Of a stretch of 64,000 bases of DNA, positions 9,012 to 63,511 are shown piece by piece. The DNA lies in NCBI GenBank assembly GCA_021904315.1, contig CM038910.1, forward strand, positions 18,352,001 through 18,416,000, in the 5' to 3' direction. Below the pieces are notes generated by a model that made no database searches, was not told the DNA's origin, and worked only from the letters and a program-made list of their open reading frames with translations. Position 1 is the first letter of the stretch. Every line of letters begins with the position of its first letter. A program made the position numbers and the translations under genes. This stretch comes from Sphagnum magellanicum (lineage: Eukaryota; Streptophyta; Sphagnopsida; Sphagnales; Sphagnaceae).

Positions 9012-10998
9012 ATGGACGTGAGTCTTAAACTGATGGAGCCGCTGAAAGAGGAGTACAAGACTCCCGGCGCTGGGTATTGTGAGCGCGTAGCTAACCACTT
9101 GGCGGCACTGGTGAATCAGGTTCCTGCAGATCTGCATGAGTAAGTCTTTTCCTGCTCTCTGTTGTCAATGTTGCCATACATGTATGGGGCCATGTCGATT
9201 CTGCAAAAACTTAAGCGGACGCAATTTCATGACTGCACATTATTGTATGTTGATTCTGCAAAAACTTACGTTGACCTGTTTTCATGACCTATTTCTTGCA
9301 CATTTTATATGTCAATTCTGAAAAAACCTAAGTCGACATGACTTGCTTCTTGCACATTATTGTATGCCGATTTCGCAAAAACTTAAGCTCGACATGCTTC
9401 ATAATGACCAGCCTCTTGCACATTGTTGCGTTACAAGCTTTCTCAAAGTCTAAAGTAGAGTTTTTCAGGTGGAAACTGTTGTTGAGCGACTTTGGCTCGA
9501 GTGTTGGGTGAAGTCGAATTGTTATCTGATGATCAGATACTTTTTTTTTTTTTTTTTTTTGCTTTGTGGACTCAATGATCAGCAGTCGGAAATCCGTGGA
9601 GGATCAGCAGGAGCTTGGTTGCGCATGCTTCTGGCGGGCAGTCGTGAAAGTCTTGGTATGGATTCTCGTAGTTGGGCACCTCATTGCGGTAGGTTGTGCC
9701 TACTTCTTCCTGTTTTTCGCGCCTAACACAAGGACGGATCGAGTGTACCTTCAGCATGGGTTTGAAGACTATGCAATCAAAACCCACTTCAACGAATTGG
9801 CGTCATATGGACTGAATGTGAAGGAATCAGAATATCCGGTCTCCGGCAATCATGTCGTCTCCTGCCCTTGCACTACAACGACAGTCAGCTGGACCGATTT
9901 CGTTCACTTTTATGTCATTTACAACTCCCGAGGCGATCTAGTCTACAAATATGATTCCAACGACAACTTGATAGACTTCACCTACGCAGGCTGCGATGAT
10001 TCCATCGATCCTAAGTACCTGAGCCGGACTTTCAAGCTGAAGAAAGACAATGTGTGTACTTTCTGCGGATCCGAGCACGTGAATATCTTTCCCCATGCGC
10101 TACACACCGGTCACAATCTCAATACTGATTGTGAGTTCATTTCCAACCTCTTCGTTACCACCCAAGAATCAAAAGCTTCATGGGGAAGGAATTGGAGGGA
10201 CAATGCGATCTCATACTTCCAATCGCCAGTCCTTCTCCACCAGAAGTTCCTGTACTCCAACACCATCCAGCTGCTCAAATGTACGTAGTCTTTCTCCTAC
10301 TTATCATGACTATGTAATGTACTTTCTATTGAGATGTAGCCAATATCGTCAGTGGGCAGTCAAGGCCGCTTGTCGCAGCTGCTGCTATTCGTGATGAAGG
10401 CCTGATAATGGGGTCTGATATCTGACACATTGTGAGTTACTTAATTCTCTCTCTGCACTAACTGCTGATCTAAACCTTTGAACTGTGAGCTGCAGCGCAA
10501 CTGGATAAACAATTTTTGCTGCTGCGAGTGAACCCACTGACTGTGGAATGCGTGAACACAACACATGTGGAGATGTTTCATGAGGGCTTGGCACAACAGT
10601 GGATAAACGTGCTGGAGACTTTCGCAGCCAACTCCGGCAGCTCCGATTCCGACTACTTCAAGAACGCGGGATCGAGAGCAGTAGAGTTCTACAAAAGCAC
10701 GTCCACTTACTACAAATACCATTTCATGGTGGTCTTGGATCCAAAGGGCCAATCCGTTCTGGGTATGAACATGGACTGGAAGGAATACTACAACCAGTGC
10801 AAACCTCACTACTGCGACGTCACAAGACCCAACTCCTTGTACCGCCGCATCTACCTCATTGCGGCACAGCTTGGAGGACTGGCGGCCTTAGTGTATTTCT
10901 TGCTTCGCTGCATTGTGTGCCCTCTCCTCCCCAAAATCATCAATCGGAGTACTAGGGCATACAATTATCGCTCAGAGAGTTTGTCAGTGGGTCATTAA
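9012..10998 (+). CDS. Two-pass membrane protein with a sensor-like outer domain, unknown function
   Basis: I read four coding exons: 9012-9139, 9469-9507, 9583-10280 and 10496-10998. All junctions are GT-AG and phases match (2, 2, 1), giving 455 residues. The ATG at 9012 has an AAG upstream and G downstream, a good plant context. Residues 1-74 are soluble. A hydrophobic segment spans about 75-101 and a second about 407-429, followed by a short basic tail. Between them lie about 300 residues, presumably outside the cell or in a lumen, with CPC and CTFCG cysteine pairs. Two strand patterns, FYVIYNSRGDLVY and FMVVLDPKGQSVL, recall the core strands of CHASE4/Cache sensor domains. No kinase, cyclase or GGDEF domain follows. 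I do not recognise the family; the sensor reading is tentative. Codon use and G+C content contrast sharply with the flanks, supporting a real gene. Confidence 0.75.
9181..9427. repeat. Intronic minisatellite, about four units of 62-65 bp
   Basis: The first intron is nearly filled by copies of a unit holding TCGATTCTGCAAAAACTTAAG, a TTCATGAC-like word and CTTGCACATTATTGTATG. Units are diverged by about 15-25% (estimate by eye). Confidence 0.75.
9540..9586 (+). other. Long T tract and tandem CAGCAG splice acceptor
   Basis: A run of T (9540-9560) precedes the acceptor of exon 3. The acceptor itself reads ATCAGCAGT, so either AG at 9581-9582 or AG at 9584-9585 could be used. Both keep the downstream frame and differ by one residue (Gly-Ser against Gly). 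Such NAGNAG acceptors often give both products. Confidence 0.55.
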
Positions 10999-29700: not shown

Positions 29701-29921
29701 TTGTTTGGAGGACTTCATGAATTACTCTAAGAGGTGTCAAATAGTCCAAAGACCATAAGATTAATTTTGTGAAATGAATGTTCATGGGCATTTTTTATAT
29801 TTTAAATGAAAGATTTACATACACAATGCCAAAACGTGGCATTTATGACTACAAAAATCCAAGATTGTCTGTGCCATCTATGACTAGAGATGATTACATT
29901 ATTACTAGTTGAAAAGACCAC
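26781..29921. other. AT-rich intergenic DNA, no gene seen
   Basis: No coding frame or ordered repeat could be supported. It runs up to the left end of the retrotransposon. Confidence 0.5.
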
Positions 29922-30212
29922 TGTCATGTTTGTACATGGCCTCATACATGATGGCCAATTACGGGCATGCCCATGTGCGATTTTAGGGTTGATGTACAGT
30001 CTTAGGCGACTGTACGCTATTAAGTACTTAGGGTTTCAGTTTGTTGACGATGGTATAAAAGGCCTAAACCTTTCTTTCTCCTTTTAGTTTTTCTAGAATT
30101 CCTTTGTCATGAGCTTCCTCCATAATAAGCTAGGATTTTTAGATGCTCACGACGACCATTGCACGACCATCGTCTACATACAGTTCATTTCCTTCTTTCT
30201 TTGCAATTCAAT
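29922..30212 (+). repeat. Left terminal block (partial 5' LTR)
   Basis: It starts TGTCATG and matches 38530-38820 over 291 nt without a gap. It contains TATAAAAGGCC (30054-30064), a credible TATA box, in a position where the right copy reads TATGAAAGGCC. Sequence to the left (before 29921) does not match the left of the other copy. Sequence to the right continues as probable R/U5 and leader until the gag start at 30923. Confidence 0.75.
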
Positions 30213-30922
30213 TCTAGAAAAACTTTATTCCTTGTTGTTTCATGTTGAAAGTAACAAATTTCTTGTGCTTTTGAAATTCTTGAGTTGCTATTCGTGTTGT
30301 TGTTGTCGGAAGGAGCACACTACTAGTGTTGCTATTGGTGTTATTAGAGGGAGTTTGCGTTTCTTACAACCAACGAAGCCGGGACACTAAAGAGCAGGTG
30401 TCAAAACTTCTTTCTTTCTCCCATTCTTTTTTTCTCTTGAAGTTGTCGAGTAAAAAACAAAAAAAATAAAATGCTACAATGCAACATTGGCCAGGGCTGT
30501 AACGTGCTACCAACCATCGCAACAGCACTGTGAGGTCTAGCCGTTGCCAACCATCGCAACAGTGGTGCCGACCAGCACCACGAGCTGTAGCGCTCCCGGC
30601 CATTGCTATACTGTTGCGTTGCGAGGAGCTGCAGTGTAGTGCCATTGCCTGCCATCGCCACAGTGGCGGCTAAGCTTTACACGTCCGACGTAAGTCGGAC
30701 GTTCGTCCACAGACTTCCGTCCGTCGGTCTTGCGCCCTGCCATCCTACGTATTGTTTTGATGTCTTGCCTTTTCATCCAACATCTGTTTGACTTTCGTGC
30801 GATCTTTGCGTGTCACAAATCATTCCCAACAGTGCATTATATTCTTCAAATTATACGTTGTGTTAGAATTTTGTAGTTAGTGCTATGTACTATCACAACA
30901 TTTTAGGGCATGGGACAACACC
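30213..30922 (+). other. Probable R/U5 and untranslated leader of the retrotransposon
   Basis: It includes a G+C-richer part (30480-30780) with repeated CCATCGCAACAGTG-like words. A CCCAACAGTG near 30825 looks like the end of many plant LTRs, but no TGGTATCAGAG-type primer site follows. The LTR boundary is therefore not settled. Confidence 0.4.
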
Positions 30923-32700
30923 ATGTCTTCGAATGATGAGAGCATTACTATTCGGCCAGAGCCCAAGTATCAACTACAAAATAACACACAATCCTTTGAG
31001 CTGATTTGTTTAAGTTCACAATCTTCATGACAATACCATCAAGTGTCTACAACACCATTGTCATCTAGTACAACTCCTACCAGGAATTCAGGTTCAGGTT
31101 ACATTACATCAACAATACATCAAAGTCCATTTGGAGGGGTTAATCAGTGGGGTACGCCCATTGCTGCACCTACTTTCACACCATCACCGTATACTCCGTT
31201 GCAAGCTGTGACTTCAACACCGATTTCCACCATGGAGGTCAACAGTTCCTCTGGGAGAATTGTGAAGTTCAGCGAAAGGCCAGGTACTATTTCTTTGAGG
31301 GAGTTCAAGGCAACTTTCTCAACTGTGGTTTGTGAATTAGAGCTCAAATATGGCACTAATTCCACCGAGGCGTTTGCATTCAAACAATTGGTTCGTATGT
31401 GCACTATGAGGCATTAAATGTCTATGAGCAACATTTTGCAAGGATTTTGGGTGTCACCCAAATTCCCAATCCAGCTTAGGCATAGCCATTACCACCGCCT
31501 CTCAAGCTGCATTGCAAGCTGCAATTGCACATCACGGGACTGTGCCGAATAATCCAGACCCGGTACCTACCTCAGTAAACCTTTTTCTTCAACAACTCAG
31601 TGCTGTTACTACAAACATTCCTCCCACCACCGATGCGCTAGCTTTTGTTGATCCAGTGGGGAAATTCTTTCGAATTCTTGAGTTGGAATTTCCAATCAAA
31701 AGTTTTGAAAAAATTATACAGCTTACCACCTTTTTTCGGCAGAAAGATGAAACCCTCAAGATGCTCTACAAGAGGCTTCTCAAACTCAAAGAGGATACCC
31801 AGAGCATCACCGATTTGGAAGCTGCCCACCAGTATCTTCGTTCATTGGAAGGTACTCCAACGCTCCACGCGCAGGTTTTGTAATGGGCCTTTGCAGAATT
31901 TGGAGATTTGTACACTTTGCTAGATGTGTACAACATTTCCGAAAAGTTAGAACTGGCTCATGCACACTATGAGGCCAATACTATGAGGCCTTCATCATGT
32001 TCAAGGACTCAACCTACACAAGTTGCGCCAACTAGATCATCACATTCTTCTTCAAGGACTAAAGCGGTGCACACGGCTACACCCATCCTACCTTCTTGCA
32101 ACTACTGTGGCAATCCTGCCCACAATGCTAATGAGTGCAACATTCCTTCCGAAGATCTCTTTTGTGATTATTGTGGGAAAGAGGGACATCAGGAATTTGT
32201 ATGTTTTGCCAAGTTCCCAGAGTGGAAGCAACTCCGATTACAACAGCAAAATCTGCCAGCATCTTCCGTTGTCCCTCAACCAAAAGCCAAGGCACCTTAG
32301 CCTTCCACTCAGGCTTTGCTGACCAAGGGTAATTCCAACAAGAATGTTAAGAAGAAGGAGCACAATGTTGACAAGAGGGAGGTGCTTCAAGCCCATGCAA
32401 TTCAAGTTCAGACTTTACAAAATGAACTCGAATCATTGAGGGCTCAACTTGCTAATCTAAAAGGCAAGTCCTACCAACCAGCTAATCATGCCCAACCTAT
32501 ACAAGGTTCAGGATCACGAGAGGGACCTCCTAGATCGTTCTATGGCCTTCCACACGATGCCATGGTTGGGGAGTATGTTCTTTCCACTCCACGTAATCTA
32601 GTCTCACACCAAAATTTGCTACTTCTTTTTGCCCTTCCTATGTTGCGGCACAAGAAGCTAGTGTGGCACCCAGAGTTTCTGCCACTAGGCAGGTAATTTA
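30923..32700 (+). pseudogene. gag (nucleocapsid/capsid) of the gypsy element, broken
   Basis: The likely start is ATG 30923, in frame with the stretch at 31043-31417, after an early TGA at 31028-31030. A frame change near 31398 leads to a second frame running 31512-32696 with a TAA at 31881-31883 and a TAG at 32298-32300. Capsid-like text includes KFSERPGTISLREFKATF and FRQKDETLKMLYKRLLKLKE. Two CCHC knuckles (CX2CX4HX4C) lie at 32097-32138 and 32163-32204. A coiled-coil-like stretch rich in Leu, Gln and Glu follows at 32380-32470. Gag packages element RNA into particles; the knuckles bind RNA. The copy is inactive. Confidence 0.8.
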
Positions 32701-32938
32701 GACTGATGGATTCGCATCTGGTTCAAATCCTATTACTAGGGCTAAAGGAGCTCGAGTAGTCATGCCACAATCTTTTCGTCCTTTCAACATGGAAGAAGAA
32801 CGCACCTTGTTGGCGAAAGGGGAGGAGACGACTACACCACAAGCTGTTAGGGCATCAAATTCTCGTGTCCCAAGAATACATGTACATCAAGAAAACACAC
32901 AATTTTCCACTGATTAACTTATGGAATGTTAACTTCAA

Positions 32939-33710
32939 ATGCATGAAATGGCGCAAAAGCTTGTGAATACACCATTGTTTAGTTTTCAAGATTTGAAGCT
33001 AAGCACCAAGGACATAATTGCAATCTTAGAGGATACCTTGAACACTACATCAGGTCCTCTACCAATCCCTGATCCACATGCTACAGAAGTCCCATCCAAC
33101 ACCTTGGAGAGACATTCGATTAGCTCACGTGTTGCAAATGGTGTTCGTAATCTGGTTTCTAATTCTAACATGGCTAAATTAGTGGGCTTTCCTACCTCTG
33201 ATTCTACATTCACATATTAGAAGGGAGTTCAAAACACCTCACTTGTGGATTTGTTACTTAGCAAAGGTGTTGTGGATAGCCATTCTCTCCACAAAGTCTC
33301 TCATTCATTTATGAAGGTGTTGCTTAGTGAGAGAACTTTCATCGCCACCGGAGTTGCCATTATCGACAACACTGGGTCAGCAATCCAAGTGGGAGGACAT
33401 ACACCCAAAGTGGTACTTCTTGACAGATGTGCCCAACCAGTGATTCTTGGAGTTCAATTCGCCAAGAAGATGGGCATGTTTGACTCCAAACTATGGAAAT
33501 CTATGTGGCAGATTCGCACCGCTAGTGGGAGCGTAAAGGAGGTACTTGGGGAAAGCTCGGATTTGATTACACTTAAGTTCAATGAAGGTACAGATCAGGA
33601 GCTTTGCTTATAAGTCAGATGTTTAGTCACCAATGCCACAAGTTATGATGTGCTCATTGGGCAAGAGGCCCTGTTTCCACCAAGTTTCACAATTGACAAC
33701 TAGTTTGAAC
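32939..33710 (+). pseudogene. Retropepsin-like aspartic protease region, active site damaged
   Basis: The frame reads PKVVLLDRCAQPVILGVQFA around 33410-33465, the place of the LDSGAQP-type active site in gypsy proteases. The Asp codon stands at 33422-33424, but the following Ser/Thr-Gly is Arg-Cys here. Further on TNATSYDVLIGQEALFPP (33631-33684) matches the second conserved loop (YDVLLG). A TAG (33218-33220) and a TAA (33611-33613) interrupt the frame. The enzyme would have cut the polyprotein into its parts. Confidence 0.65.
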
Positions 33711-33720
33711 ATGCGTACTA

Positions 33721-35280
33721 CTAAGTGGATTAGGAAACTGATGGCCACCACCTGCGATACATACCCTTGATTTACATGGGAACCATAGTCCTATGGCTCA
33801 CCATTGTATGCTCAAGGAAGCACACACCATTTCTTACATCCAACAAGCTAGCCACGAATGGATAGAGGGAGATGAGGAGGAGATAGTTTATGCTTAAGCT
33901 ACTTAAAGCTTGAAGGTGGTTCCTACTGATATTTAACATGGACCAGAGGTTTTACAAAGGTTCAAAGTAGCCCACAAGCCCTTGGTAAAAGCTTTGTCTA
34001 GTTTTGAAAGCATGGAAAGCCATGGCGAACCGATTAAGCCATTACTTCGTCAGCTAATCACCTGGACACCACCGAAGGAAGGGATTACATTACTAGAGCT
34101 CTTTGGTAGTATTGGTACAAGTCTCGAAGCCCTACTATAGTCAGGGATGGTGGTTCAGGGGTATTTTTATGTAGACATTGATCCTATTGCAAGGCAAGTG
34201 GCGGCATCAAGAATGAGGGAGTTCATAACAAGATTTCCACAACAATTTGCAACCACCGCATGGAAGGCTAGTTTCACATTTTTGCCCTCTGACATACAAC
34301 TAATTCAGAAGAAGCATACGGAATTACTTGGCCTTGTCGACCTCATCATTTCAGGTTGGGAATGTCAAGGATTTTTAGCGGATGGATTTGGAGAAGGCTT
34401 GAGTGACACAAGATCTAGTCTTTTCACGGACATGATACGATTGATCACCTAGGCTCAATCCATTTCTCCTACACTTGGTTATGTAATTGAGAACATTTTT
34501 TCTCAGTTTGATCAAAGGGAGAAAGTCCAGGAGCACTACACACTAGTCAAGCATTACCTTGGAGAACTGCTCTTACTTGATGCGGCACAATGTGGTTCCT
34601 ATGCGCACTAGCTGCGCAATTGGTGGACCAACTTGGCACCACTCTCAGTTTTGCAACTAGTTCTAAAATACACTATCAGAGACCCGAACCTGTAGGTTTC
34701 TCACATATTGGAGGATCAAAGTTCTTGCCAACCAGTTACAAGGCAAGAAAAACCTCCTTGGTTTCCTATAAACACAATAGGAAAACCAAGAGGTGCTTGG
34801 CCCACCTTTGTTTCCTTCCCAGGAGCACACGCCTTTTAGGGAGATGGGCCAGGCCTGGTGTATCGTCATGTTTCAACCACTTGGGATGAACCAAGCCCAA
34901 AAGAAAGAGAAAAGGCTATGGGGTTCCAAGCTGGCACTACTAGTCACACTAAGGTGACTAGATTGGAGCGTAATGCTCTACTAGGGAGAGGCATGGACCT
35001 GAACTCTCTTACATGGTTGTTGGTAACTTGTGTACTCTTTCAAATGTACACAACACCAACATTGATTCAATCAACTTACAATTCTAGCGATGCAACCACA
35101 TGGCACCCCGACCAAGTACACTTACCTATCTTCAACACTTTACATTTCACTCTCAATGTTGGGGGGGAGGAGGTACCATGTAATTTGACTCAAGTTGTGT
35201 CTAATACACTTGGAGGTACATCCACTTCTGGAGAAACAATCACAACCTTCTACGAATCTATGCAGTTGGATAGTGGATAA
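33721..35280 (+). pseudogene. Cytosine-5 DNA methyltransferase domain inside pol
   Basis: One frame runs from about 33721 into reverse transcriptase. Within it 34093-35040 shows the ordered motifs of C5-methyltransferases. Motif I is LELFGSIGTSLEAL (34093 on), with an acidic VDIDP 30 codons later. Motif IV is SGWECQGF, with the catalytic Cys codon at 34363-34365, then GLSDTRSSLF. Motif VI is YVIENI (34480 on). The late motifs are LDAAQCGSYAH and LRNWWTNL (34576-34635), INTIGKPRGAWPTFVSFPG, EREKAMGFQAGTT (34909 on) and ERNALLGRGMDLNSLTWLL. The late part resembles DNMT3-type enzymes, in linear rather than DRM-permuted order. Five in-frame stops (34138, 34450, 34609, 34693, 34837) are all TAG; no indel was needed across 950 bp. 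Glu replaces the usual Pro of the PC motif. It would methylate DNA cytosines using S-adenosylmethionine. Confidence 0.85.
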
Positions 35281-35349
35281 CCCAATACACTAGGTTCTTC
35301 AAACACACTTTCCAACTCCATTCCATGTGTTTCCAACTACCCTTTCGTT

Positions 35350-36330
35350 ATGGGGAACCATCTCACCAAGAAGGAGAGAGACCAAGTCATAAACTTGTTA
35401 ATTAAGTATGAGAATGTGTTTGCATTCTCAATGAAAGACTTAAGTAGGTGTAAGACCATGCAATTCTCTATAGACCTTACAAATGAGACACATGTCTATC
35501 AAAGGACGCATAGGTTGAACAAACATGAATGGGAACTAGTAAATGAAAGATGCAAAGAGCTCCATGAGGCCGGTCTCATTCAGCCATCAAAATCTGATTT
35601 TGCAGCTGCTGTAGTAATGCCAGCAAAGAAAGATTCAGCTAGATTATGGACTGAAAAAAGGATGTGCGGGGATTATAAGCCTTTGAACCTAGTTACACCT
35701 TAGGATAGGTACCCCATGCCCATCCTGGAAGAATTGTTTGATAGCATTGGAAATTCAAACATCTTCACAATTGTGGATCTAAGGCAAGGTTTCAACCAGA
35801 TTGTGCTCGTTGTGAAGGATCGCAAGAAAACATCATTCCATGGAAGCAACAAGTTATGGGAATGGCTTGTGATGCCTTTTGGATTGAAGAATGCACCTGT
35901 CTTCTTTTAATGAATCATGGACCAGGTTTTCGAAAGGGCAGATTTCCTGAAATGCTACATAGATGACGTCCTAGTGCATAACAAGGGACTCCTACAGCAT
36001 TTGGCCCATCTTGAGGAGTTATTCAAGAGGCTCCACGAAGTCAATATGAAGATCCATCTTAAAAAGTGTGAGTTTGTTGTCACTTCAGTAATCTACCTTG
36101 GACATAGAATTTTGCCAAATGGTATTATGGCTCATTGGGCCAAAGTAGTAGCCATTTTGGAGATGCCCAATCCTACTAATGTTCACACGTTGAGGAGTTT
36201 CATTGGATTATGTAATTACTACAGAATTTATGTCCAAGACTTTAGTACTATTGCTCATCCTCTTTATGCATTGCTAAAGAAGGATGTTATTTGGACATGG
36301 AATGATGAGGCTCAAGAAGCTTTCACAGTT
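35350..36330 (+). pseudogene. Reverse transcriptase of the gypsy element
   Basis: It shares the reading frame of the methyltransferase. Thumb-side text RTHRLNKHEWELVNERCKEL, then CGDYKPLNLVTP, precede motif A FTIVDLRQGFNQI (catalytic Asp codon 35776-35778). LVMPFGLKNAPVFF is motif B. CYIDDVLV at 35953-35976 is motif C, YIDD in place of the more common YVDD. GHRILPNGI, KVVAILEMPNPTNV and LRSFIGLCNYYRIYV follow as usual. Stops occur at 35701-35703 (TAG) and 35908-35910 (TAA). All three catalytic aspartates remain. It would copy element RNA into DNA. Confidence 0.92.
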
Positions 36331-36745
36331 CCCCATTTTGAGAATACCGGATTTCAACAAGGTTTTCATTCTACACACTTATTGGAGTGCTCTTGGTATT
36401 GGAGCTATTCTTGGCCAACTTGATGAGGAAGGCAAGGAATATGTTATCGCCTATGCATCTCGAAGCAACAACAAGGCTAAGAGCAACTACTCTTCATACG
36501 AAGGGGAGTGCTTTGTTATTGTATGGGTCGTCATACATTTCAGGCCCTATCTTTATGGCACCAATTTCAGTTTGTATATAAACCACCAGCCTATCAAGTG
36601 GTTGATGACCAACGATAAGCTTATTGGTAAGTTAGCTCGTTGGGCACTTATACTTCAAGAGTATGAGTTCAAGGTTATTCACCAACCTGGTATTACACAT
36701 CAGAATGTGGATACCATGTCACGAAGACCCCTCACTACCTTTGAA
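36284..36745 (+). pseudogene. RNase H domain of the gypsy element, first catalytic Asp lost
   Basis: After a frame change near 36325 the text PDFNKVFILHTYWSALGIGA appears, then AYASRSNNKAKSNYSSYEGE and a YLYGTNFSLYINHQPIKWLM stretch. Gypsy RNase H normally has Asp after HT; the codon at 36380-36382 is TAT (Tyr), so the first metal ligand is missing. Asn replaces the usual Asp in the INHQPIKWLM block. The domain would degrade the RNA of RNA-DNA hybrids. Confidence 0.85.
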
Positions 36746-37012
36746 GATTTTTCAAAAGCCAGGCAAGATTTTGACCAAATTCCAGCAATACATGTATCTG
36801 AAGCATTTAGTTATCTTGTACTATTACAATGTAACTTGGTTGAGCATCCCATTCTGGATATATGGGAGGACTTGGACACTTTGGGGTTTCTTCAACATGG
36901 GGAATACCCTCCCCAATTTACATCAAATCAGCGGGATCGCATACAACAGCGGTCCAAATGCTATTGGTGGAGGGACAATCACCTCGTCCGATGCTTATCA
37001 TAAGGCGATAGA

Positions 37013-38142
37013 GTGGTTCCACCACCACATGAACGGCCTGGTCTTATTCAAAAGGTACACTCGGAACTTGGACATTTTGGAGTTAAACGTACTTATAGCC
37101 TTCTCGCTCTTCATTACCATTGGAGAGGTATGTATGCTCAGGTCCGAGACATCATTGCTAGGTGTGAACAATGTGATAGAGTGAGAACTTATTTCTCCTT
37201 TCGACAGTTCATGCTTTCTCCACTCTTTATTCAGGGCATGTTCTATCGTTGGTCATGTGATTTAGCTAGAGAGTTACCACAAACCTCCAGGGGTAATGTT
37301 TACATCATGATTATGATTGAGCATTTTTAAAAGTGGGTTGAGCTTGTTGTGTTACCGGACAAGTCATCACACAGCACTAGCTAGGCTTTTTTATAAAAGG
37401 TTCTAAGTAGGTTTGGGGCTTGTGCTAAGTGCCTTATTGATCAAGGATCAAAATTTAGGGGAGAATTCCAAGACCTATTTGACCATGCTTTCATTGACCA
37501 TCGTCAGACTTCAAGAGATCATCCCTAAGCTGATGGCCTTGCAGAAAGGATGGTTCAAACGTGCAAGAAGGGACTTCGGAAGATTTGTTTCACTTAGAAC
37601 AAAGAAGAGACCTGGCCTTCCCATACATCGCCATGGGTTACAAGATGTCCAAACACGTCTCTTTATCTCATTTCTCTCCTTACTTTTTACTTTTTGGGAG
37701 ACACCCCATTCCACCCTCTTCCATTACTGCTCAAATGGACCAGGTTATGGACTTGGATTCCCCAGCCACTTGGGCTAAGGTCATTGCAGAAAGGGTTGCT
37801 TTATTCAGGAGGGTTATGCCCATGGCCATGGGAAACCTATCCATTGCACAACATCGAGACACCTTATGGTATGCACACACACGAGGTGGCAGTTACAAAC
37901 CTAAGGTGAGACAATTTGATGCTGGTGATTTTGTATATCTCCAGTGGCAACCAAATGATACTCTAGAGACTTCTTCTGGTCGCACTATCTTGAAGATTAA
38001 GGCGATCAGGCCTTCAGGTGTGTTGGAGCTACAAGGAGTTGACGGACGCACAATTTGGGATCATTCCAAAAATTGTGCACCCTGCCACATGCCGAACTTG
38101 GACCCTACCATCATCACGTCAACTTGGATTCCCTCCACTTGA
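37013..38142 (+). pseudogene. Integrase of the gypsy element (HHCC, D,D35E core)
   Basis: The zinc-binding HHCC is complete: His codons at 37058 and 37073, Cys codons at 37163 and 37172. The catalytic triad is also complete: Asp 37259 (CDLAREL), Asp 37439 (LIDQGSKF) and Glu 37544 (DGLAERM). Spacings are 60 and 35 residues. Stops at 37328 (TAA), 37379 (TAG) and 37529 (TAA), and a frame change near 37605, break the frame. The C-terminal part reads FPYIAMGYKMS, FLLFGRHPIPP and RQFDAGDFVYLQW, the usual end domain of gypsy integrases. No chromodomain follows; a PHD finger does. Confidence 0.9.
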
Positions 38143-38302
38143 TTATCCATGTCAGGTATGTCAGAGGATGGATGATGCCGATTAGATGTTGCTTTGCAAC
38201 AACTGTAATGGTGGATACCATCTCTTCTGCCTCAAGCCGAAGCTCACTCAAGTTCCCGCTGGTAATTGGTACTGTTCATCATGTTCTTTTATAACACCTT
38301 GA
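38132..38302 (+). pseudogene. PHD finger at the end of the integrase
   Basis: In the frame one step from the integrase, the text LDYPCQVCQRMDDAD is followed by one TAG (38183-38185), then MLLCNNCNGGYHLFCLKP and LTQVPAGNWYCSSCS to a TGA at 38300-38302. The eight ligands fit the Cys4-His-Cys3 order: Cys codons 38150, 38159, 38195, 38204; His 38219; Cys 38228, 38273 and 38282. Trp stands two residues before the last Cys pair, as in PHD fingers. PHD fingers commonly bind histone H3 tails, often methylated Lys4. Its place corresponds to the chromodomain of chromoviruses, so it may have steered integration (inference). Confidence 0.8.
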
Positions 38303-38340
38303 TTCCTATTCAAACCATGCCATGTTTTTCCCGGCTCAGG

Positions 38341-38351
38341 TTTGGGGGGGG
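38341..38351 (+). other. Polypurine tract candidate
   Basis: TTTGGGGGGGGATACATGAG stands after the PHD stop, the usual place for the plus-strand primer of reverse transcription. If so, the 3' LTR should begin at about 38352, but the shared LTR block begins only at 38530. Confidence 0.55.
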
Positions 38352-38498
38352 ATACATGAGAATTTCATCTTAGCTTCCCTTATGCATTGTATATATATGT
38401 GTGCATGCATCTCTTTTTAGTTGATTAGTTTATATCTTTGACTGGCTTTAGTTTTTTTGTTTAGTATAATTTACTACGTATTTACATCTTTACGACAC

Positions 38499-38849
38499 CG
38501 TACGTCACGACACTACACGGCACGACAGCTGTCATGCCTATACATGGCCTCATACATGATGGCCAGTTACAGGCATGCCCATGTGCGGTTTTAGGGTTGA
38601 TGTACGATGTTAGGCGATTGTACGCTATTAAGTATTTAGGGTTTCAGTTTGTTGACGACAATATGAAAGGCCCAAACCTTTCTTTCTCCTTTTAATTTTT
38701 CTAGAATTCCTTTGTCATGAGCTTCCTCCATAATAAGCTAGGATTTCTAGATGCTCACGGTGGCCATTGCACGGCCACTGTTTACATATAGTTCATTTCC
38801 TTCTTTCTTTGCAATTCAATCGTATGTCACGACACTACACGCCACGACA
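38499..38849 (+). repeat. Right terminal block (partial 3' LTR) flanked by 29-bp direct repeats
   Basis: The block 38530-38820 matches the left terminal block. It is bracketed by two 29-bp direct repeats, 38499-38527 and 38821-38849, with two mismatches (shared core GTCACGACACTACACG). The second repeat starts exactly where homology to the left LTR copy ends. The right LTR therefore looks truncated or rearranged at 38820. Confidence 0.75.
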
Positions 38850-39780
38850 CCACATCATAAATGCCATTAATCACATTAGTTGTAACCACATTAATGCTTA
38901 TAATTCACCATGATTATAGTTGCAAAGGACATAATCTTGGATCCAACAAAACACATGGCAACTTCACAAAGTCCCACGTGTCACAATTTTTAAAAAATAG
39001 AAATACATATATATATATATATATATATTCCAATCAAATATTGCCACATGCTCACCTCTTAACCTAAGGGACCCAACCTAAGAACCTAGCTTAAGCCACT
39101 TAACCTAGAAAACTTACTTTAAACAACTTATCCTAAGCACTAAAAACAATTCATATGTTAAACAAGCCACCAAGGTATTTAGGCATTTAAATGTTTAAGT
39201 GTTTAGGTTTGAAAGTGTCAACAACATGAAGATCCACAAGAACAAAGGCTAAAAGAAACTACTAACAAGAACATGAGATGTACAAGACAAATATGAAAAC
39301 AAATCTTTATTAACATATGCAAACATGAACATGAAAAAAACATGACAAGGCTATGGTGCAAAATCATGCCTAAGACTAATGTTAAACAAACTAAAGGAAG
39401 TGAAGGGTCGTACTTCTATTTATACCCCTTTGGGGACCTAGCTAAAGGAAGCTTTCAAAGAGGTTTTTATGTATGCATCAAGTAAAAAAGCTTGTTAAGA
39501 ACCTTTCTAACTAAAAGTCAACTATGAATTAATTGAAACTTAACTAAAAGTTAATTAAAATTTAATTAAAATTCAATTAAAAGTTAATTAAAAATTAATT
39601 AGAATTAATTGAGACTTAACTAAAACTTAATTAAAATGAATTTAAAATCAACTAGAAATGAACTATGAATTAAATGGAAGTGAATTAAAACTCAATTGAA
39701 AGTCAACTAAAAATGAACTGAAACTAAATTAAAAGTTAGGTACATGGATAAACATTCAAATGAACGAAGTCAATGGCATG
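38850..39780. other. AT-rich DNA, no gene seen
   Basis: It holds a TA repeat at about 39006-39027. From 39530 to 39735 it has a degenerate array of AATTAAAAGTTAATTAAAA-like words. Confidence 0.55.
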
Positions 39781-52480: not shown

Positions 52481-52602
52481 ACTCGACCTGCAGGACTGGT
52501 GTGGAAATTTAGCTATCCTGGGAAGGAGAGTGAAGACGATCAAGGAATTGACGTTCGGTGGTTCCTGGACCTCCAGTTGATCCGGACTGGTGAAAAGGCA
52601 AA

Positions 52603-54438
52603 ATGGGAGGAAGATGGTGGCGAGGAGGAGGCAGAACTGGGATGATGATATTCGTGTGCGTGCTCGCCTTGCTGAGCAGTGCTGACAATGTGCTACAAGT
52701 CTCGATGGGAGTAGCTGCTGATTCATGGGAGCTTCTGATTGAGAACGCCGGTGTTTCGGCGATGCATATGACGCTAGCGCATACCAACAAGGTGATCATG
52801 TTCGACCGTACCGACTACGGTCCCTCTGAGATCAAGCTTGCCAATGGCTTCTGTCGGCGCGACCCACAAGACTTAGCCCTGCAAGTAGACTGCTGGGCGC
52901 ATTCCATCGAACTGGACCTGGCCACAAACAGGATCAGACCTCTCACAGTCCTCACTGACACATGGTGCTCCTCAGGTGCATGGCAAGCTGATGGGATTCT
53001 GACCCAGACCGGAGGATGGCACGACGGAGGTACCACCATGCGTACCATCGGGTCTGATGGCAACAACGACTGGCGCGAGTTTCCCAATACGCTTGCAGTC
53101 CCAAGATGGTATGCGTCCGATCAAATTCTGCCGGATCAGCGAGTGATTATTGTGGGAGGTCGCCGCCAGTTCAACTACGAATTCGTCCCGAAACGGGGCG
53201 GAGGCGAGGCTGGTGCCATCCGGTTCCCGTTCCTGGAAGAGACTAATGACCCCGGCGCCGAGAACAACCTGTACCCGTTTACACATCTCAGCCCCGATGG
53301 CAACCTCTTCGTGTTTGCCAATCAAGACTCCATTCTTCTCAACTACGGCACGGGCGAAGTCGTGAAGCGGTTCCCCACCCTCAACGGCGGACCTCGCAAC
53401 TACCCATCTTCCGGATCCTCTGTCCTGCTCCCTATCAATGCTGCAAATGGGTAAGCTCGATCGCTTCTGCTGCGCGTACTCCTGTGGTTACTGGTACAGC
53501 TTCTTCGCAATTGTTTCCTGATTTCTTTATGAAGTCTCGTAGACTTCTTCCCTGTCGAAGAAAACCGCGCCTGCAGCTTGATTGCTTGCTTATTAAGAGA
53601 ACTTGTGGGATGCACTGTTGCTGTGAATTACAGGTACAGGACGGCCGAGGTCATGATCTGCGGAGGAGCACCTCCAGGCTCTTTTCAAGACGTAAACCGA
53701 GGAGTGTTTGTGGGTGCGCTAGACACTTGTGGAAGATTGGTTATCACAGATCCGAATCCTCAATGGGCGATCTCGGTGATGCCATCAGCAAGAGTGATGG
53801 GAGACATGCTGATTCTGCCCACAGGCGAGGTTCTCATCATCAACGGAGCAAGGCAAGGAACTGCAGGCTGGGGAGTTGCGAGGGAGCCGAATCTTGCCCC
53901 TGTTCTTTACAACCCCGTCTTCGACCGTTTCCAAGTGATGACAGCGACCAATATCCCTCGTCTCTACCATTCTACCGCAAATGTAATGCCTGACGGCTCG
54001 GTTCTCGTCGGCGGCAGCAACCCTAATTTCGGATACACTTTCACCGGCTCTCTTTACCCTACTGAACTGCGGATCGAGAGATACAATCCTTACTACCTCA
54101 ATGCTGCACACGATGCCCGTCGACCGGGGATTGTTGCTATCGACAATGAGGCACCAGGCTATGGAGTGGATTTCAAGGTCACACTGGCGATTCCTGGAGC
54201 ACCCGACGGCGTTGTCTTCCATCTGTATGCACCTCCTTTCACTACACACACGTACTCGATGAACCAAAGGATGCTAGTGCTCGCAACAAGTGCACCCGTT
54301 GCAGCTGGTGGCAGACAGAACTTCGTGACAACTGTTACTGCTCCTCCCAGTGCAGTTCTCGCTCCTTCCGGCTGGTATTTGCTTACAGCAATCAACGATG
54401 GTGTTCCAAGTCCCTCTTCTTGGATACATATTGGCTGA
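52603..54438 (+). CDS. GLOX: Glyoxal oxidase / galactose oxidase-like secreted copper-radical oxidase
   Basis: Two exons, 52603-53450 and 53634-54438, join in phase 2 through a 183-bp GT-AG intron to give 550 residues, the usual length of plant GLOX proteins. A basic start and a hydrophobic stretch (about residues 13-25) form a signal peptide. The N-terminal glyoxal oxidase propeller is followed by the DUF1929-type end domain. Copper-radical residues are all present: Cys122 (DTWCSSG) and Tyr170 (RWYAS) for the thioether cofactor, Tyr394-His395 (PRLYHS) and His488 (TTHTYS). The enzyme oxidises aldehydes such as glyoxal or methylglyoxal to acids with release of hydrogen peroxide, in the cell wall or apoplast. 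Plant relatives act in pollen, tapetum and defence. No neighbour shares a pathway. The gene is rich in G+C and has no break. Confidence 0.95.
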
Positions 54439-57973: not shown

Positions 57974-57988
57974 CTGTGACTCGTCGCA

Positions 57989-60742
57989 CTCAACAACTGG
58001 AGGCCTATAACGCTGCTTGGCAACGTTTACAAAATTCTGGCCAAGGTTCTCGCCAGAAGATTCCAAGCGGCCCTCCCGAACATCATCAGACCCAACCAAA
58101 TTGGTTTTGTGGAAGGGAGATCAATCCTAGACAACGTCTTCATGGCGCAAGAAGCCCTGGGCTGGGCCGAAGAAAGCAACCAAGATCTAGTTCTCCTACT
58201 ACTAGATTTTGAGAAGGCATTTGATCGGATCGAATGGAATTTCCTATTCACCGCACTGGAAAAGCTAGGATTCAAAGACATTTGGATTCGTTGGGTGAGC
58301 TCTCTCTACAAAGAGGCAACCTCAGCCATCAAGATGAATGGCGAGTTAGGGCCAGACTTCCAGCTAGCCAGATCAGTGAGACAAGGATGCCCCCTGGTGC
58401 CTTATATATTCATTTTCGCTACGGACGTATTGGGGTACATGCTGGCCGACCCCAAATATGGGATAGAAGGCCTCTCCCTTCCGAAGGGTGGCCTCATCAA
58501 AGACCAGACCTTTGCGGATGACACGACACTTTATCTCAAAAGGACTCCCCCCAACCTAGACAAGCCCCAAAGAGTGTTAAAGTTATTTAGCTCAGCCTCA
58601 GGCGCAAGAATCAACTGGCACAAGTCGGCGGCCATCTAAACAAGCAAGAACGTGCGGACCTAGCAATGGGGAATCGACGTCGGACTCAAATGGGTTCCGG
58701 ACGGAGAAGGTATTAGATACCTGGGAATACAAGTAGGCTCCCATCTCCCCCCAGAGGCGAATTTTGACAAGATGATGATGGTTCTAAAAAGCAAACTGAT
58801 CAATTGGAGCCACAATCAATTGTCCCTGGCCGGAAGGATCCTGGTAGCCAACCAGGTTCTTTTGGCCTCCATGTGGTACATTGCCGCGTGTTGGAACCCC
58901 AACCCCCGAATGACCACGCAGATCAGAAGAGTGGTAAGGAACTTCATATGGGGCGGCAAGGATGTTCCAGCACGCGCCAAAGTCAAATGGGACACCCTGA
59001 CACTCTCAACCACTCAAGGGGGGCTAGGAATCATTGATCCCAAGGCCCAATCCAAGGCCTTCCTGGCCAAATTGCTGATTAAAGGGCTCGCCCCGGGAAG
59101 AGAGCCTTGGAAAGAACTCATCCGGCATAAGGCCGACCAGATCTGGCTTCCCATCCACAGCAAGGGACCCAATATCCCAGACGTCAATTAGATCTTCGCC
59201 GCGCCGAAGGTCAAAAGGATTCCATGCTCAATATGGAAGAGCATAATCGGAGCTTGGATGAAGGTGAGGCCGGGCCTAACCAAGGAGAAACCATCCAACA
59301 TCGCGGAAATCTTCATGCAACCAATATTCGGCAATCCTCTAATTCTCAACAAAAGCGGAACTCCGCTAGGCCTGGGCGGATCGAAGGACGGGAGCGCCTT
59401 CATGAGAGCCGGCTGCTCCCGAACACAGGATCTCTGGAACCCGGGAGCTCAAACTTGGAAAAGCCTCGCAAAGCTCGGAATGAGCTACCATACATCGAAC
59501 AGGCAATGCAAAGAAACCATCATAGCCAGCATTCCTTGGTGCCTAGCTAAAAGCTCCAACACTCCGAAAGAAGGAGATTAGGTAAACAACCCCACCCCCT
59601 CCTCAGGAGCTCCCCTCGACTGGATCTACTTCGTGCTCAACGCAACCCCAAGCCAAACCAAAGCCATCGAATTCAAAAGAAATGCTCCCAGTGGACACAT
59701 TCAGGCCTCCACCAACCAGGTAATCACCATCGCCACCGGCAACCTCCTTCTGGTCATAATCTTATCCTAAGAAAAGCCCCAGGGCCTTCTTCAAGATCGC
59801 CAAGGAGCTGAAGACCCCCAGCAAGAAGACCCTAATCTTTTGGATCTTCGAAACCAGCTTCATCCAAGATCTCCCCTGGGCAGGGGAGTGGCATTGGCGC
59901 ACCTCCCCGCTGCTCGGGGACACGCCCTTCTTCAGCTACACCGCCAAAAGAGGCTACATCAACACCCGGAAATCCTCGCACACCCCGCACATGATCACTT
60001 TCATCCAAGGCCTCAACCTTCGGAACACCTCAACTCCACAAGCCATCACCAGAATATGGCATAGCGCCCACCCAAAAAAAGTGAGCACCCTCATTTGGCT
60101 CACCCTCAACCAGGGCCTCCAAGTCGGCTCCTAGCTCAAACTCATGGGCCTCCCCCCTCAATGCAAGGTATGCAGCTTGGGCGCCGAGGAGACCCCGCAA
60201 CACTACCTCCTCGATTGCCTAAGGGCCCAAATCGTCTGGAAAGCCTACGAACGCATTTGGGCCGAATGGAAAACCCACCGAAACCTCGCGCCCTCCTGGC
60301 CTTTCATGCTTCTCGGTGAAGTCGCCTTGGAACACGAAGACGACCCCCCCGGCCTCCTCGCGTATCACACTGGCGGCTTCACTTACCCCCGCCAACCCTT
60401 CGACATCCTCCGTAGCTTCATCCTTTACCATCTCTGGTCGAAAAGATGTAGAAAACACTTTGATGATCAATACTCCCTTCGCAAAGTCCTGCTCGATGCC
60501 TGGGTGGCGACGGTGGAGGTCGGTATGGCCACTTGGAAGGCCATTAGATCTCACCGTCCGGCCAAGGACCCGGATACTCAGCTTAGCATTGAGCTTGCCT
60601 TTAGGAAAGAATGGCTTCATCTGAACATTCTTGGAACGGACAATGCCACCATCAAATGGCATTACCTCCCCCCCATGTACTTCCTTAATTATTCTAATGT
60701 TTGAAGGGGCTGTTGCCTCCCTCCCCCTCTCCGGGGTTCTAC
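57989..60742 (+). mobile_element. 5'-truncated L1-type LINE, decayed
   Basis: Only the reverse transcriptase half and C-terminal part of ORF2 remain. The element begins abruptly inside the domain, typical of incomplete reverse transcription. CTGTGACTCGTCGCA at 57974-57988 and CTGCGACTCGTCGCA at 60743-60757 (one mismatch in 15) are a candidate target-site duplication that fits the truncation point exactly. No poly-A tail stands before the right copy, which is unusual. Confidence 0.75.
57992..60704 (+). pseudogene. LINE ORF2 fragment: reverse transcriptase and zf-RVT region
   Basis: The frame opens with NNWRPITLLGNVYKILAKVL, then GFVEGRSILDNVFMAQEALG, LLLLDFEKAFDRIEW, VRQGCPLVPYIF and FADDTTLYL (58511-58537), the RT motifs of L1 LINEs with the catalytic FADD intact. 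LAGRILVANQVLLASMWYIA and FIWGG follow. Stops fall at 58637, 59189, 59579 and 59768; the frame moves one step near 59775 and continues with WHWRTSPLLGD. A further stop lies at 60132. CKVCSLGAEETPQHYLLDC (60165-60221) is the zf-RVT zinc motif. The endonuclease is absent. The product would prime cDNA on nicked target DNA. Confidence 0.9.
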
Positions 60743-61217
60743 CTGCGACTCGTCGCAAATGAGATGCTCCTTTTGCTTGTTCCTCTTGCTCTCGTGACAT
60801 GCCACTGGCGATGGGAGCTCTCTGCTGTCTGGACGTGTATCAGAGAGGCTCATGATTCTCTTGTCCGAATGCACCTTTTTTTAGATGATTCTTAAGCGCT
60901 TCTTCTCAACAATGATGGAAATCTGCTCAGAAGCTGCTGATCCTCAGACCACCAAGCTTAACAAGTTCGTTTTGGTAGCTCATAGGATTAGGAAAGTTAG
61001 ATGTAGTGTGCGACCGGGACTCAGCAAATTCAAACTAAGACCAAAGAACGTCGGCGGCGCCCAAGCCTCCTCTCCAACGAGCAAAAAGAACTTACTTGCA
61101 GCCAACGGCTCTATTGATCCGGCATGGCCAGAACTCTACAAAGCTCCTGCCAAACCGATCTCTCTCCATTCTGGGGAAACGATCTGTAAGGAGGGAAGGA
61201 TTGCGAGTTCAGAAAAG

Positions 61218-61612
61218 GCGAATTCGATTGCTCTCCAGGATCGGTCGAGACTCTAGCAAACAAGCAAGGAAGCACAAGCTCTCTTACTCAGGAGCGATGG
61301 CGGACCACGAGGAGAGCTTCTCCAACGGTCATCTTCGCCAATCGCTCCTCTGGAGTCGCGACGAAACTCCCAGAGAGCAAGATTGAAAGCTTTGACGAAC
61401 TGCGCACCCCTCAGGCGAATTCGATCGCTCTCCAGGATCGGACGAGACTCCAGCAAACAAATAAGGAAGCGTAAGCTCTCTTGCTCAGGAGCGATGGCGG
61501 ACCACGCGGAGAGCTTTTCCAACGGTCATCTTCGACATCCACTTCTCTAGACGTCATGACGAAACTCCCGAAGAGTAAGATCAAATGCTCTGACGGACCT
61601 TGCACCCATCAG
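61218..61612 (+). repeat. Two tandem leader units of about 197 bp
   Basis: GCGAATTCGATYGCTCTCCA starts at 61218 and 61415. GGAGCGATGGCGGACCACG, GAGAGCTTYTCCAACGGTCA and GACGAAACTCCC recur at the same offsets. The likely ORF1 start codon (61556) lies inside the second unit. Confidence 0.85.
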
Positions 61613-63511
61613 GTACTTTCGAAAGGATCCTCTCCTCATCCCCGCAAGTCAGATTTATTCTCTGCATCTGCTGGTCTTGGAAGAGGCTCGGAGAACTCGG
61701 AAGCTGCTGCAGCCAGGCAATCGAAGAGGGAAGACCTCTCCGCTGCCAGAGCAAAAGCACCGAGAGTGAGAAGCTCACAACATAAGAACTCGATCAACTC
61801 AGTGACGACCCCCTCCCTCCACCCTCTGATCGCGCAACCAGGCAACGGGACAAGTGCTGACTTCCCCGAAGGGGAGGCAACCCAAGGCCCATCGCCAGTC
61901 GATTATAATCTGGAAATTGAGGCGGATTTTCCGAAGGATTTGGTGCTGACGATGCAAGAAAACACTGCTAAGAAAGCAAGGCGAACCGTAATTGGTAGAA
62001 ATTTAGGGGGCAGAGCAACCTTCAAGACGCTGCTCGATTGTCTCAAACTTCACCTCTCGGCCCCTTTCGTCTCGGTTACTCTCCTCGCAAGGGGATACTT
62101 TGAGATTTTGCTCGAAGATGAGGAGGGCGCGAAGGCCACCAGACAACTGACGGCAGTCGAATGGAGTGGCTTGGGTCTCTCTTTCTCACAATACATCCCG
62201 AACTTCGACGCAAGCTCGCAAGGAGCAGAAGCTCAACTTACTCACGCTATCAAGGTGCAGTTCCCCGACTTGCACGAATAATTTCGGAACACAAGAGCCC
62301 TGACCATCATGGCCAGCAAGCTCGGGGAGGTCCTAGAAATTGAAGCAACCGATTCTTATATCAAAAGGTTAGCCGGGCCCATGATAACAATCGAGCTAAG
62401 AGATATCTCCAAGCTTCCTGGCTACATTAGAATTCCGTCAATGGCGAAAGGAGCTGAGACCAACGACAGGGTAGCACAAAAAATTCTATACTCTGGACTA
62501 CCAAATCAGTGTAGAAAATGTAGGCGATTCGGCCATCACGCCCAGATCTGCACCATCAACAGAAGTAAACCCTGGGAAGGGGTGCCACCATCCAACGGCC
62601 CCCTCTCCATAAGTGGAACAGATGGAAAGAAGTCAGGAGGAAGAGCTTCTCAGCCAAAGCAGGATCAGGTTGGCAGACAGCCTCGACCTCAAAATGTCAG
62701 GAGCAACCAAACGCGCACTCGAAAGAACCCGTTGCACTTAGAAGCTCGCAGCTAATTAAAGCACCCCACCGATTCAGCCATCGCCAATTGCTCCGATAAG
62801 CTCCATAGAGCAGAAATACAACCAAGGGGTTCAAGCCAGATCGAAGTACTAGGGAGCTCAAAAGTTAATCACGTCATGACAAAACTTGCAAGCTCCCCAG
62901 GTCTCAATCACGACAGGCCTAGTCTAGTGACCAGAAGGCATCCAGAAAGCACCTACACATCCAAAGCAAAGCTCAATTTTAGTTTTCGAGAGGCAAACAA
63001 CCACCAGGCTCCTTACTCAGCTGCAAACACAAACCCGTTCGCGGCTCTGGAGGCTGTCAACCCAGAAGTTGAGGACGCAAAGGATAATCAAGAGGATCTG
63101 AGGGAAAGCTGGACCTTCTAAGGAAGAAAGAAGCACACTCCTAGGATCGCCTCGCCAAGGCAGGCCCTGCTTCAGTCCCCAACTCCCACCCCAAACCATG
63201 AAGTCACACCAGGGGGAAGAAGGAAACGAATGCACTCAGAAGTACATCGCTCCTATTTCACCTCCCTAAGCATCTCTGTACCACCAAGCCAAGAGCACGC
63301 CAAAACAAGGATCTGGCCGGTTTTGTCCAGAGAAAAAAATGACCAGAAAGAGATTTTAGTATACGCCAGGAACAATTCCCCGCCGAGCCTCACGCTTAAC
63401 ATCAGGATCACGGGCTCGTCAAAGGAAGAATGGACCCATGCATCCGCCCTTGCAAATATCACCCAGAGCATCGAATCAGAGCTCGAGGACAAGTCCTCAA
63501 ATACAATCTAA
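61556..63511 (+). pseudogene. LINE ORF1 (DUF4283-like domain and CCHC knuckle), interrupted
   Basis: From ATG 61556 one frame runs to 63511, broken only by stops at 62279, 62753, 63119 and 63509, with no frameshift needed. Residues about 120-290 resemble the DUF4283 domain of plant L1 ORF1 (FVSVTLLARGYFEILLEDEE, then TIMASKLGEVLEIE and GYIRIPSM). CRKCRRFGHHAQIC at 62512-62553 is a CCHC knuckle, and NPFAALEAVN near 63031 is a phrase common in plant LINE ORF1 tails. It would bind LINE RNA. The TAA at 62279 is a plausible CAA change. Confidence 0.75.

Follow-up and report, generated by a model that had tools for sequence, protein, structure and literature searches.

This locus raises the question of whether a cytosine-5 DNA methyltransferase lying inside a plant retroelement is a working part of that element or an accident of one decayed copy. 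In the window (the whole 64,000-nucleotide stretch of Sphagnum magellanicum DNA analyzed here), a decayed Gypsy-type element spans positions 29922-38849, with a C5-methyltransferase between its protease and its reverse transcriptase (RT). The parts of the element and the evidence for each are as follows.

29918..29921, no strand: left 4-bp target-site duplication, CCAC (same 4 bp at 38850-38853)
29922..30212, + strand: repeat A1, starting TGTC (self-comparison of the copy)
30054-30060, + strand: TATA-like box in A1 (by eye)
30086-30097, + strand: AGTTTTTCTAGA in A1 (by eye)
30213..30224, + strand: putative self-priming primer-binding site TCTAGAAAAACT, the reverse complement of A 30086-30097 (direct reading and relatives)
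31031..32696, + strand: gag-like region (open reading frame translations; Pfam weak)
31884-32300, + strand: two Cys-rich knuckles in the gag-like region (by eye)
33221..33703, + strand: protease, decayed (weak Pfam match, E = 0.13)
34093..35040, + strand: DNMT3-like C5-methyltransferase with five in-frame TAG stops (Pfam; class taken from relatives)
34354-34374, + strand: GWECQGF, motif IV of the methyltransferase
35281..36423, + strand: RT, stop-broken (RVT_1, 2.1e-11, in 35914-36420)
36278..36760, + strand: RNase H (PF17917, 2.2e-32)
37004..38139, + strand: integrase (zinc domain in 37004-37327)
38144..38296, + strand: PHD finger with one in-frame stop (PF00628, 4.7e-10, for 38186-38296)
38344..38351, + strand: G-run, polypurine tract adjoining B1 (G-run before B also in relatives)
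38352..38527, + strand: repeat B1 (match to B of another copy)
38530..38820, + strand: repeat A2, 91% identical to A1 (self-comparison)
38821..38849, + strand: repeat B2, last 29 bases only, ending GACA (match to B)
38850..38853, no strand: right 4-bp target-site duplication, CCAC (matches the left CCAC)

A sequence-only reading of this DNA had placed a C5-methyltransferase between the protease and RT of a Gypsy-type plant element that also carries a PHD finger, and Pfam searches, in which the stop-to-stop pieces of the window were submitted separately, recovered both domains. The piece at 34141-34449 matches PF00145 (E = 6.2e-6, 26.3 bits, cut-off 22), and 513 database proteins match the methyltransferase piece at E <= 0.01 (518 candidates), the best of the 120 listed at 99% identity. 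The motifs, located by eye, follow in order in a single frame, as that reading had held: I at ~34090, the motif IV Cys at 34363-34365, VI at ~34489, VIII at ~34594-34620, and IX/X at ~34900-35020. By its profile match and its ordered motifs I, IV, VI, VIII, and X, the domain belongs to the C5-cytosine methyltransferases. The usual Pro-Cys of motif IV is absent, with Glu-Cys in all 18 copies counted below, and the WEC reported in place of PC is indeed present in the window.

The description of the domain as complete and continuous with RT was right about the layout only. Five in-frame stops, all TAG, lie within 33937-35277, so the layout of the domain is complete while its reading frame is interrupted, and that frame continues toward RT with further stops on the way. 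In the window copy the methyltransferase is thus genuine and correctly placed but dead. For the TAG stops, decay of CAG codons through CHG methylation would be the simpler reading. TAG as a recoded amino acid was rejected, as relatives have Trp or Arg at two such places and as TAA and TGA also break the frame. The window protease reads LDRCAQP, where most relatives seen have LDTGAQP, and the integrase core (rve), present in relatives, was undetected by Pfam in this copy. Of the 292 sites shared by repeats A1 and A2, 26 differ, 25 through transitions, a pattern fitting an old copy that has been methylated.

Elsewhere in the window, a glyoxal oxidase-like gene lies in two frame pieces at 52594-54438 (PF07250, 2.5e-100; PF09118, 2.2e-22). 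A LINE-type element at 57980-62755 contains RT (7.5e-30), a weakly matching zf-RVT piece, and another open reading frame with a Cys-rich, knuckle-like stretch seen by eye. Two long open reading frames at 9533-10998 (251 and 169 amino acids) have no Pfam match at E <= 0.01.

The window copy belongs to a large family. A 574-amino-acid relative, P0122, gave at least 77 matches in the 439-Mb S. magellanicum genome, a lower bound because 76 of 1,344 candidates were scored (one copy accounts for two rows), and seven copies among these have no stop in the matched methyltransferase stretch. Across the same matches, we counted 207 TAG, 130 TAA, and 35 TGA stops. A 171-amino-acid RT piece gave at least 150 matches, likewise a lower bound (150 of 3,399 candidates scored). 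When the 40 best of the 150 RT rows were paired with 54 of the 77 methyltransferase rows, 29 RT places had a methyltransferase match directly upstream. Four of the remaining 11 were fetched and all four carry the domain, although one of them contains an insert and has only the C-terminal half of the methyltransferase inside the fetched stretch. Close RT copies without the domain therefore number 0 of 33 examined, the other 7 of the top 40 lying outside this count, and on this sample a chance insertion at the window locus is rejected.

Twenty of the at least 77 matches, mostly best-scoring ones, were fetched whole. One of them holds an unbroken stop-to-stop frame of 2,378 amino acids, in which Pfam places protease at 728-824, methyltransferase at 1025-1112, RT at 1487-1641, RNase H at 1729-1833, integrase zinc domain at 1952-2008, integrase core at 2027-2120, and PHD finger at 2330-2374. 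A second unbroken frame, of 1,936 amino acids, has the same domain order. At least two frames in this genome thus run through protease, methyltransferase, and RT without a stop, and the Gag-Pol frame of the family includes a C5-methyltransferase of DNMT3-like type, placed after the protease and before RT, as well as a PHD finger that follows the integrase. Its protease-RT-RNase H-integrase order, with a DDE integrase (rve), is that of Ty3/Gypsy elements.

Relatives are not confined to one moss. Named matches to the methyltransferase stretch or its relatives come from S. magellanicum, S. balticum, S. troendelagicum, S. compactum, and the liverwort Calypogeia fissa, in which protease and methyltransferase are read in a common frame; the liverwort match has 63% identity across 63% of the query. 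Two S. magellanicum gene models annotated as hypothetical proteins, P0162 (CY35_15G039600) and P0181 (CY35_01G105500), look like spliced readings of element copies, with pieces of the methyltransferase region and a PHD finger. Scans of viral contigs with the methyltransferase alignment, the methyltransferase-RT protein, the repeat pattern, and the GWECQGFS pattern yielded nothing, and a scan of genome contigs for relatives found none.

The claim of a Gypsy element holds for the domain order but not for a canonical long terminal repeat (LTR) layout. Comparison of each copy by blast with itself and with the A and B repeats of one copy defined two repeats, A (~311 bp) and B (~179 bp). Instead of the same LTR at both ends, the 20 fetched copies and the window copy read A-coding-B-A-B (9 of 21) or A-coding-B (11 of 21), and one is rearranged. 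The nine include the window copy, whose B2 has only 29 bp; L014, which shows only the first bases of A2; and L029, in which A1 and the last B went undetected. The 3' ends of 20 further copies read B-A(-B) in 10 cases and B alone in 7, with no B in the stretch in 3. About half of the copies therefore have the A-coding-B-A-B arrangement of DIRS elements. Tyrosine recombinase (PF00589) is absent from the matches of the unbroken frames at E <= 0.01, and the rve integrase is found instead. One copy (L016 with L033) has A inverted at both element ends and B inverted at the 5' side, suggesting a rearrangement. A second, more diverged repeat subfamily (L019, L026, L036, the window copy, and others) has the same layout; compared with the main one, its A is ~75-80% identical over most of its length and its B ~84-87%.

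In the 18 of 21 copies in which target duplications were read by eye (L014, L016, and L029 lie outside the count), 16 have exact 4-bp duplications adjoining the TGTC of A and the GACA of B; in L019 and L026, they differ at one base. DIRS elements are not known to make target duplications. At the B1|A2 junction, two bases separate GACA from TGTC in 18 of 18 copies; in three of these, a single base of the GACA and TGTC ends is substituted. A G-run directly precedes B in 18 of 20 relatives; in the exceptions, the L015 probe fell on the A2|B2 junction and the L029 probe was unmatched. The sequence directly after A1, TCTAGAAAAACT, is the reverse complement of AGTTTTTCTAGA at A position 182, ~30 bases behind the TATA-like box. 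Among the relatives, the complement adjoining A1 extends over at least 12 bases in 8 of 20 copies and over 7-10 in five; it is missing from L013 (mutated), L015 (A1 cut short in the stretch), and L020, and four copies have no A1 end. Those 8 copies were examined further on account of their long match (at least 12 bases), and of their 65,876 other interior 12-mers none is complementary to any part of A. One copy has identical A1 and A2 and identical B1 and B2, so the repeats look made anew in a single jump.

These features suggest how the layout might arise. The cDNA would start by self-priming, so that the RT-defined repeat would close with the last base of A; the G-run would make the first base of B its opening, and reverse transcription should therefore give B+A at both ends. 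Genomic copies start at A and finish at B, not with B+A at both ends, and A-coding-B-A-B is the expected B+A set shifted by one B. The integrase may join TGTC/GACA ends generated where B meets A, whether on a cDNA circle or through cleavage within each of the two repeats; with integrase ends inside the RT-defined repeat, copies would look cyclically permuted, as A-coding-B-A-B or A-coding-B.

The A-coding-B copies could come directly from such a route or arise later, when recombination between B1 and B2 removes one A and one B from an A-coding-B-A-B copy. We regard the second origin as an even call. It would retain the 4-bp duplications just as direct integration does, and the two forms are about equally common (9 versus 11 of 21 copies and 10 versus 7 of the 20 further 3' ends). 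A plain two-repeat circle also predicts A-B-A-coding-B, equally often in its simple form, and this arrangement was sought in the fetched copies and not seen. Against a recombinational origin, the A-coding-B copies include some with a stop-free methyltransferase, which would demand a rapid loss.

Among solved methyltransferases, the domain is closest to DNMT3. A five-row profile searched against PDB found DNMT3A first (2.6e-10) and then DNMT3B, ahead of HhaI (3e-5), 4onj (5e-5), DRM2 (0.03), and DNMT2 (0.05). A single stop-free copy gave DNMT3A (7e-9), DNMT3B (6e-6), 4onj (3e-3), and HhaI (7e-3), whereas chains named DNMT1, CMT, or DNMT2 did not appear at E <= 10. The 4onj chain, labelled only "DNA methyltransferase," is presumably a DRM. 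The alignment to DNMT3A covers motif VIII (AHRLRN versus AHRARY) and the C-terminal GF...LLGR block, and the motif order is unrearranged; judged by these resemblances, the domain is DNMT3-like. The profile check thus bears out the C5-methyltransferase through both PF00145 and the solved DNMT3 chains, and the earlier mention of DNMT3-like motifs agrees with DNMT3A as best solved relative, but PWWP and ADD, domains of animal DNMT3s, are not among the Pfam matches of the relatives' frames. DNMT3s of protists and algae likewise lack PWWP and ADD, according to the parts of PMC12344493 consulted. The predicted structures had mean pLDDT values of 43.1 and 32.9.

The Glu of motif IV, first flagged as a doubtful feature of the window copy, proved to be the usual state of the family, whose motif reads GWECQGFS. 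Among the 20 fetched Sphagnum copies less L017 and L028 (dropped for length), with the window copy left out, Glu and the catalytic Cys are present in 18 of 18 and the Glu of ENT in 17 of 18, counts biased toward intact motifs because the copies are mostly best-scoring ones. Across 25 database rows, conservation reaches 90% or more for each of these two motif IV residues. ECQ recurs in Calypogeia (P0150 and P0267) and in P0140 and P0164, and decayed database relatives such as P0015 and P0136 have lost the site. HhaI and DNMT3A, the solved relatives aligned, have Pro at this position. The distribution of the Glu indicates that it is old and kept.

Selection on the domain was estimated as pairwise NG86 dN/dS over shared codon columns. 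The methyltransferase gave 0.185 (bootstrap interval, 0.10-0.32) in the five copies without stops in it and 0.254 (0.18-0.36) in 15 copies, these intervals being rough because pairwise counts share branches. RT gave 0.238 and 0.255, respectively, and RNase H gave 0.465 and 0.289. The linker behind the methyltransferase reached 0.86 (0.29-3.38) and 0.65 (0.32-1.53), a weak control given the wide interval. The 15-copy run excludes the window copy, L015 for its frameshift, L017 and L028 for their differing lengths, and, by our choice, L019 and L029 as decayed or divergent; with the frame-shifted L015 included (16 copies), the methyltransferase gave 0.27 and RT 0.56. Within the methyltransferase, the N-terminal half, which includes the catalytic loop, is under weaker constraint (0.32 [0.15-0.64] in 5 copies; 0.35 in 15) than the C-terminal half (0.10 [0.04-0.23] and 0.19). 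By these estimates, the methyltransferase appears to be held about as tightly as RT, which supports its reading as a working part kept by selection.

What would such a part do? The account toward which we lean, if only slightly, is that of a family of self-primed Gypsy-type retroelements in which the selected DNMT3-like methyltransferase would mark the element's own cDNA or insert, the PHD finger would steer integration, and the integrase would join ends inside B+A. Most likely, the methyltransferase would travel with RT and methylate the cDNA or the fresh insert, so that copies would arrive pre-marked and quiet, and the PHD finger may direct them to particular chromatin. Self-marking had already been suggested in the sequence-only reading. 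Points that speak against this account are the motif IV Glu at a position where HhaI and DNMT3A have Pro, the weakness of the linker as a control for selection, the looser constraint on the methyltransferase half with the catalytic loop, and the yeast result for the algal domain described below.

Of the other readings, the one that survives best, while still unlikely, is that the Glu before the Cys leaves the domain catalytically dead and that it serves as a scaffold binding AdoMet or DNA, for instance by recruiting host methyltransferases or binding cDNA. DNMT3L is a scaffold of this kind. The constancy of the Glu in the Sphagnum copies, Calypogeia, P0140, and P0164 would suit this reading, as would the looser constraint on the N-terminal half and the outcome of a search with the exact back-translation of GWECQGFS, which had one out-of-context match in the bacterial/archaeal set, which we call chance, and none in viral contigs. 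Weighing against it, the catalytic Cys and the ENT Glu are kept along with motifs I and VIII, and a scaffold need not keep the Cys. Less probable again is an active enzyme with another substrate, such as RNA, host DNA, or the DNA of rival elements. RNA methylation has been raised for LINE-borne domains (PMC5890265, sections consulted) and antiviral roles have been proposed for transposon-carried methylases (PMC6338049, parts consulted), but the location beside RT and the resemblance to DNMT3 favor DNA. A chance passenger of the locus or unselected insert, for which the dead window copy might speak, is next to impossible given the domain's presence in all 33 close copies examined, its dN/dS of 0.19-0.25, and its occurrence in a liverwort.

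A bolder extension of the favored account, that of self-primed elements marking their own DNA, would unite it with an algal element described below. An old streptophyte Gypsy line of shared descent in charophyte algae, mosses, and liverworts would methylate its own cDNA through a DNMT3-like ECQ enzyme and insert via circular cDNA cut by the DDE integrase at GACA-NN-TGTC inside the RT-defined repeat. Such a cut would explain both the DIRS-like layout and the single-A, single-B copies; we consider the proposal as a whole doubtful.

In the open-access literature, with subscription papers outside the scope, we found no report of such elements from mosses or liverworts. As far as our searches show, what is new within that literature is the presence in these plants, the PHD finger, the ECQ site, and the mechanics of the repeats. 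Host silencing of transposons works via cytosine methylation, and here a parasite brings such an enzyme, which has been kept in a land plant. With many copies in peat moss, self-marking of new copies is now testable, and the repeat layout offers a test case for how an element with a DDE integrase can resemble a DIRS element.

Parts of this design are familiar from other elements. Gypsy elements of the Tf1/sushi type are self-primed: their primer-binding site pairs with the start of the RNA, which lies within the repeat. The Sphagnum element is predicted to share this arrangement, but Tf1/sushi-type elements have ordinary LTRs and are not known to carry a DNMT or PHD. Chromoviruses, as described in the parts of PMC2864245 and PMC3350952 consulted, have a chromatin-reader domain in the polyprotein, as does the Sphagnum element behind its integrase, where a PHD finger stands in place of the chromodomain. 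No chromodomain was matched by Pfam in the two unbroken frames. In Symbiodinium, SymbioDIRS-Dnmt3 and SymbioLINE-Dnmt likewise hold a DNMT inside a retrotransposon, the DIRS-borne domains methylated CG in yeast, and the DIRS type shares the A-coding-B-A-B repeats; unlike the Sphagnum element, with its DDE integrase and 4-bp duplications, these elements use a tyrosine recombinase (DIRS) or LINE enzymes (PMC5890265, sections consulted).

The closest counterpart shows that the type is already described, contrary to what the sequence-only reading had supposed. KnitGypsy-Dnmt3 of the charophyte alga Klebsormidium nitens has a DNMT3 domain in a Gypsy Pol, under purifying selection and with DIRS-like repeats, and its domain had no activity in yeast, a result judged inconclusive by its authors (PMC5890265, sections consulted); the parts of PMC12344493 consulted restate the streptophyte and dinoflagellate cases. 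The hosts differ, an alga there and mosses and a liverwort here. The PHD finger of the Sphagnum element has no counterpart term in the main text of PMC5890265 on KnitGypsy-Dnmt3, and the sections consulted do not mention target duplications or self-priming, the latter predicted here. The two elements are likened by description rather than by sequence, and no Klebsormidium protein is named among the matches listed. By that description, they share the Gypsy domain set, the DNMT3-type domain in Pol, purifying selection, and the DIRS-like repeat layout, and the Sphagnum element is of a kind already known from the alga.
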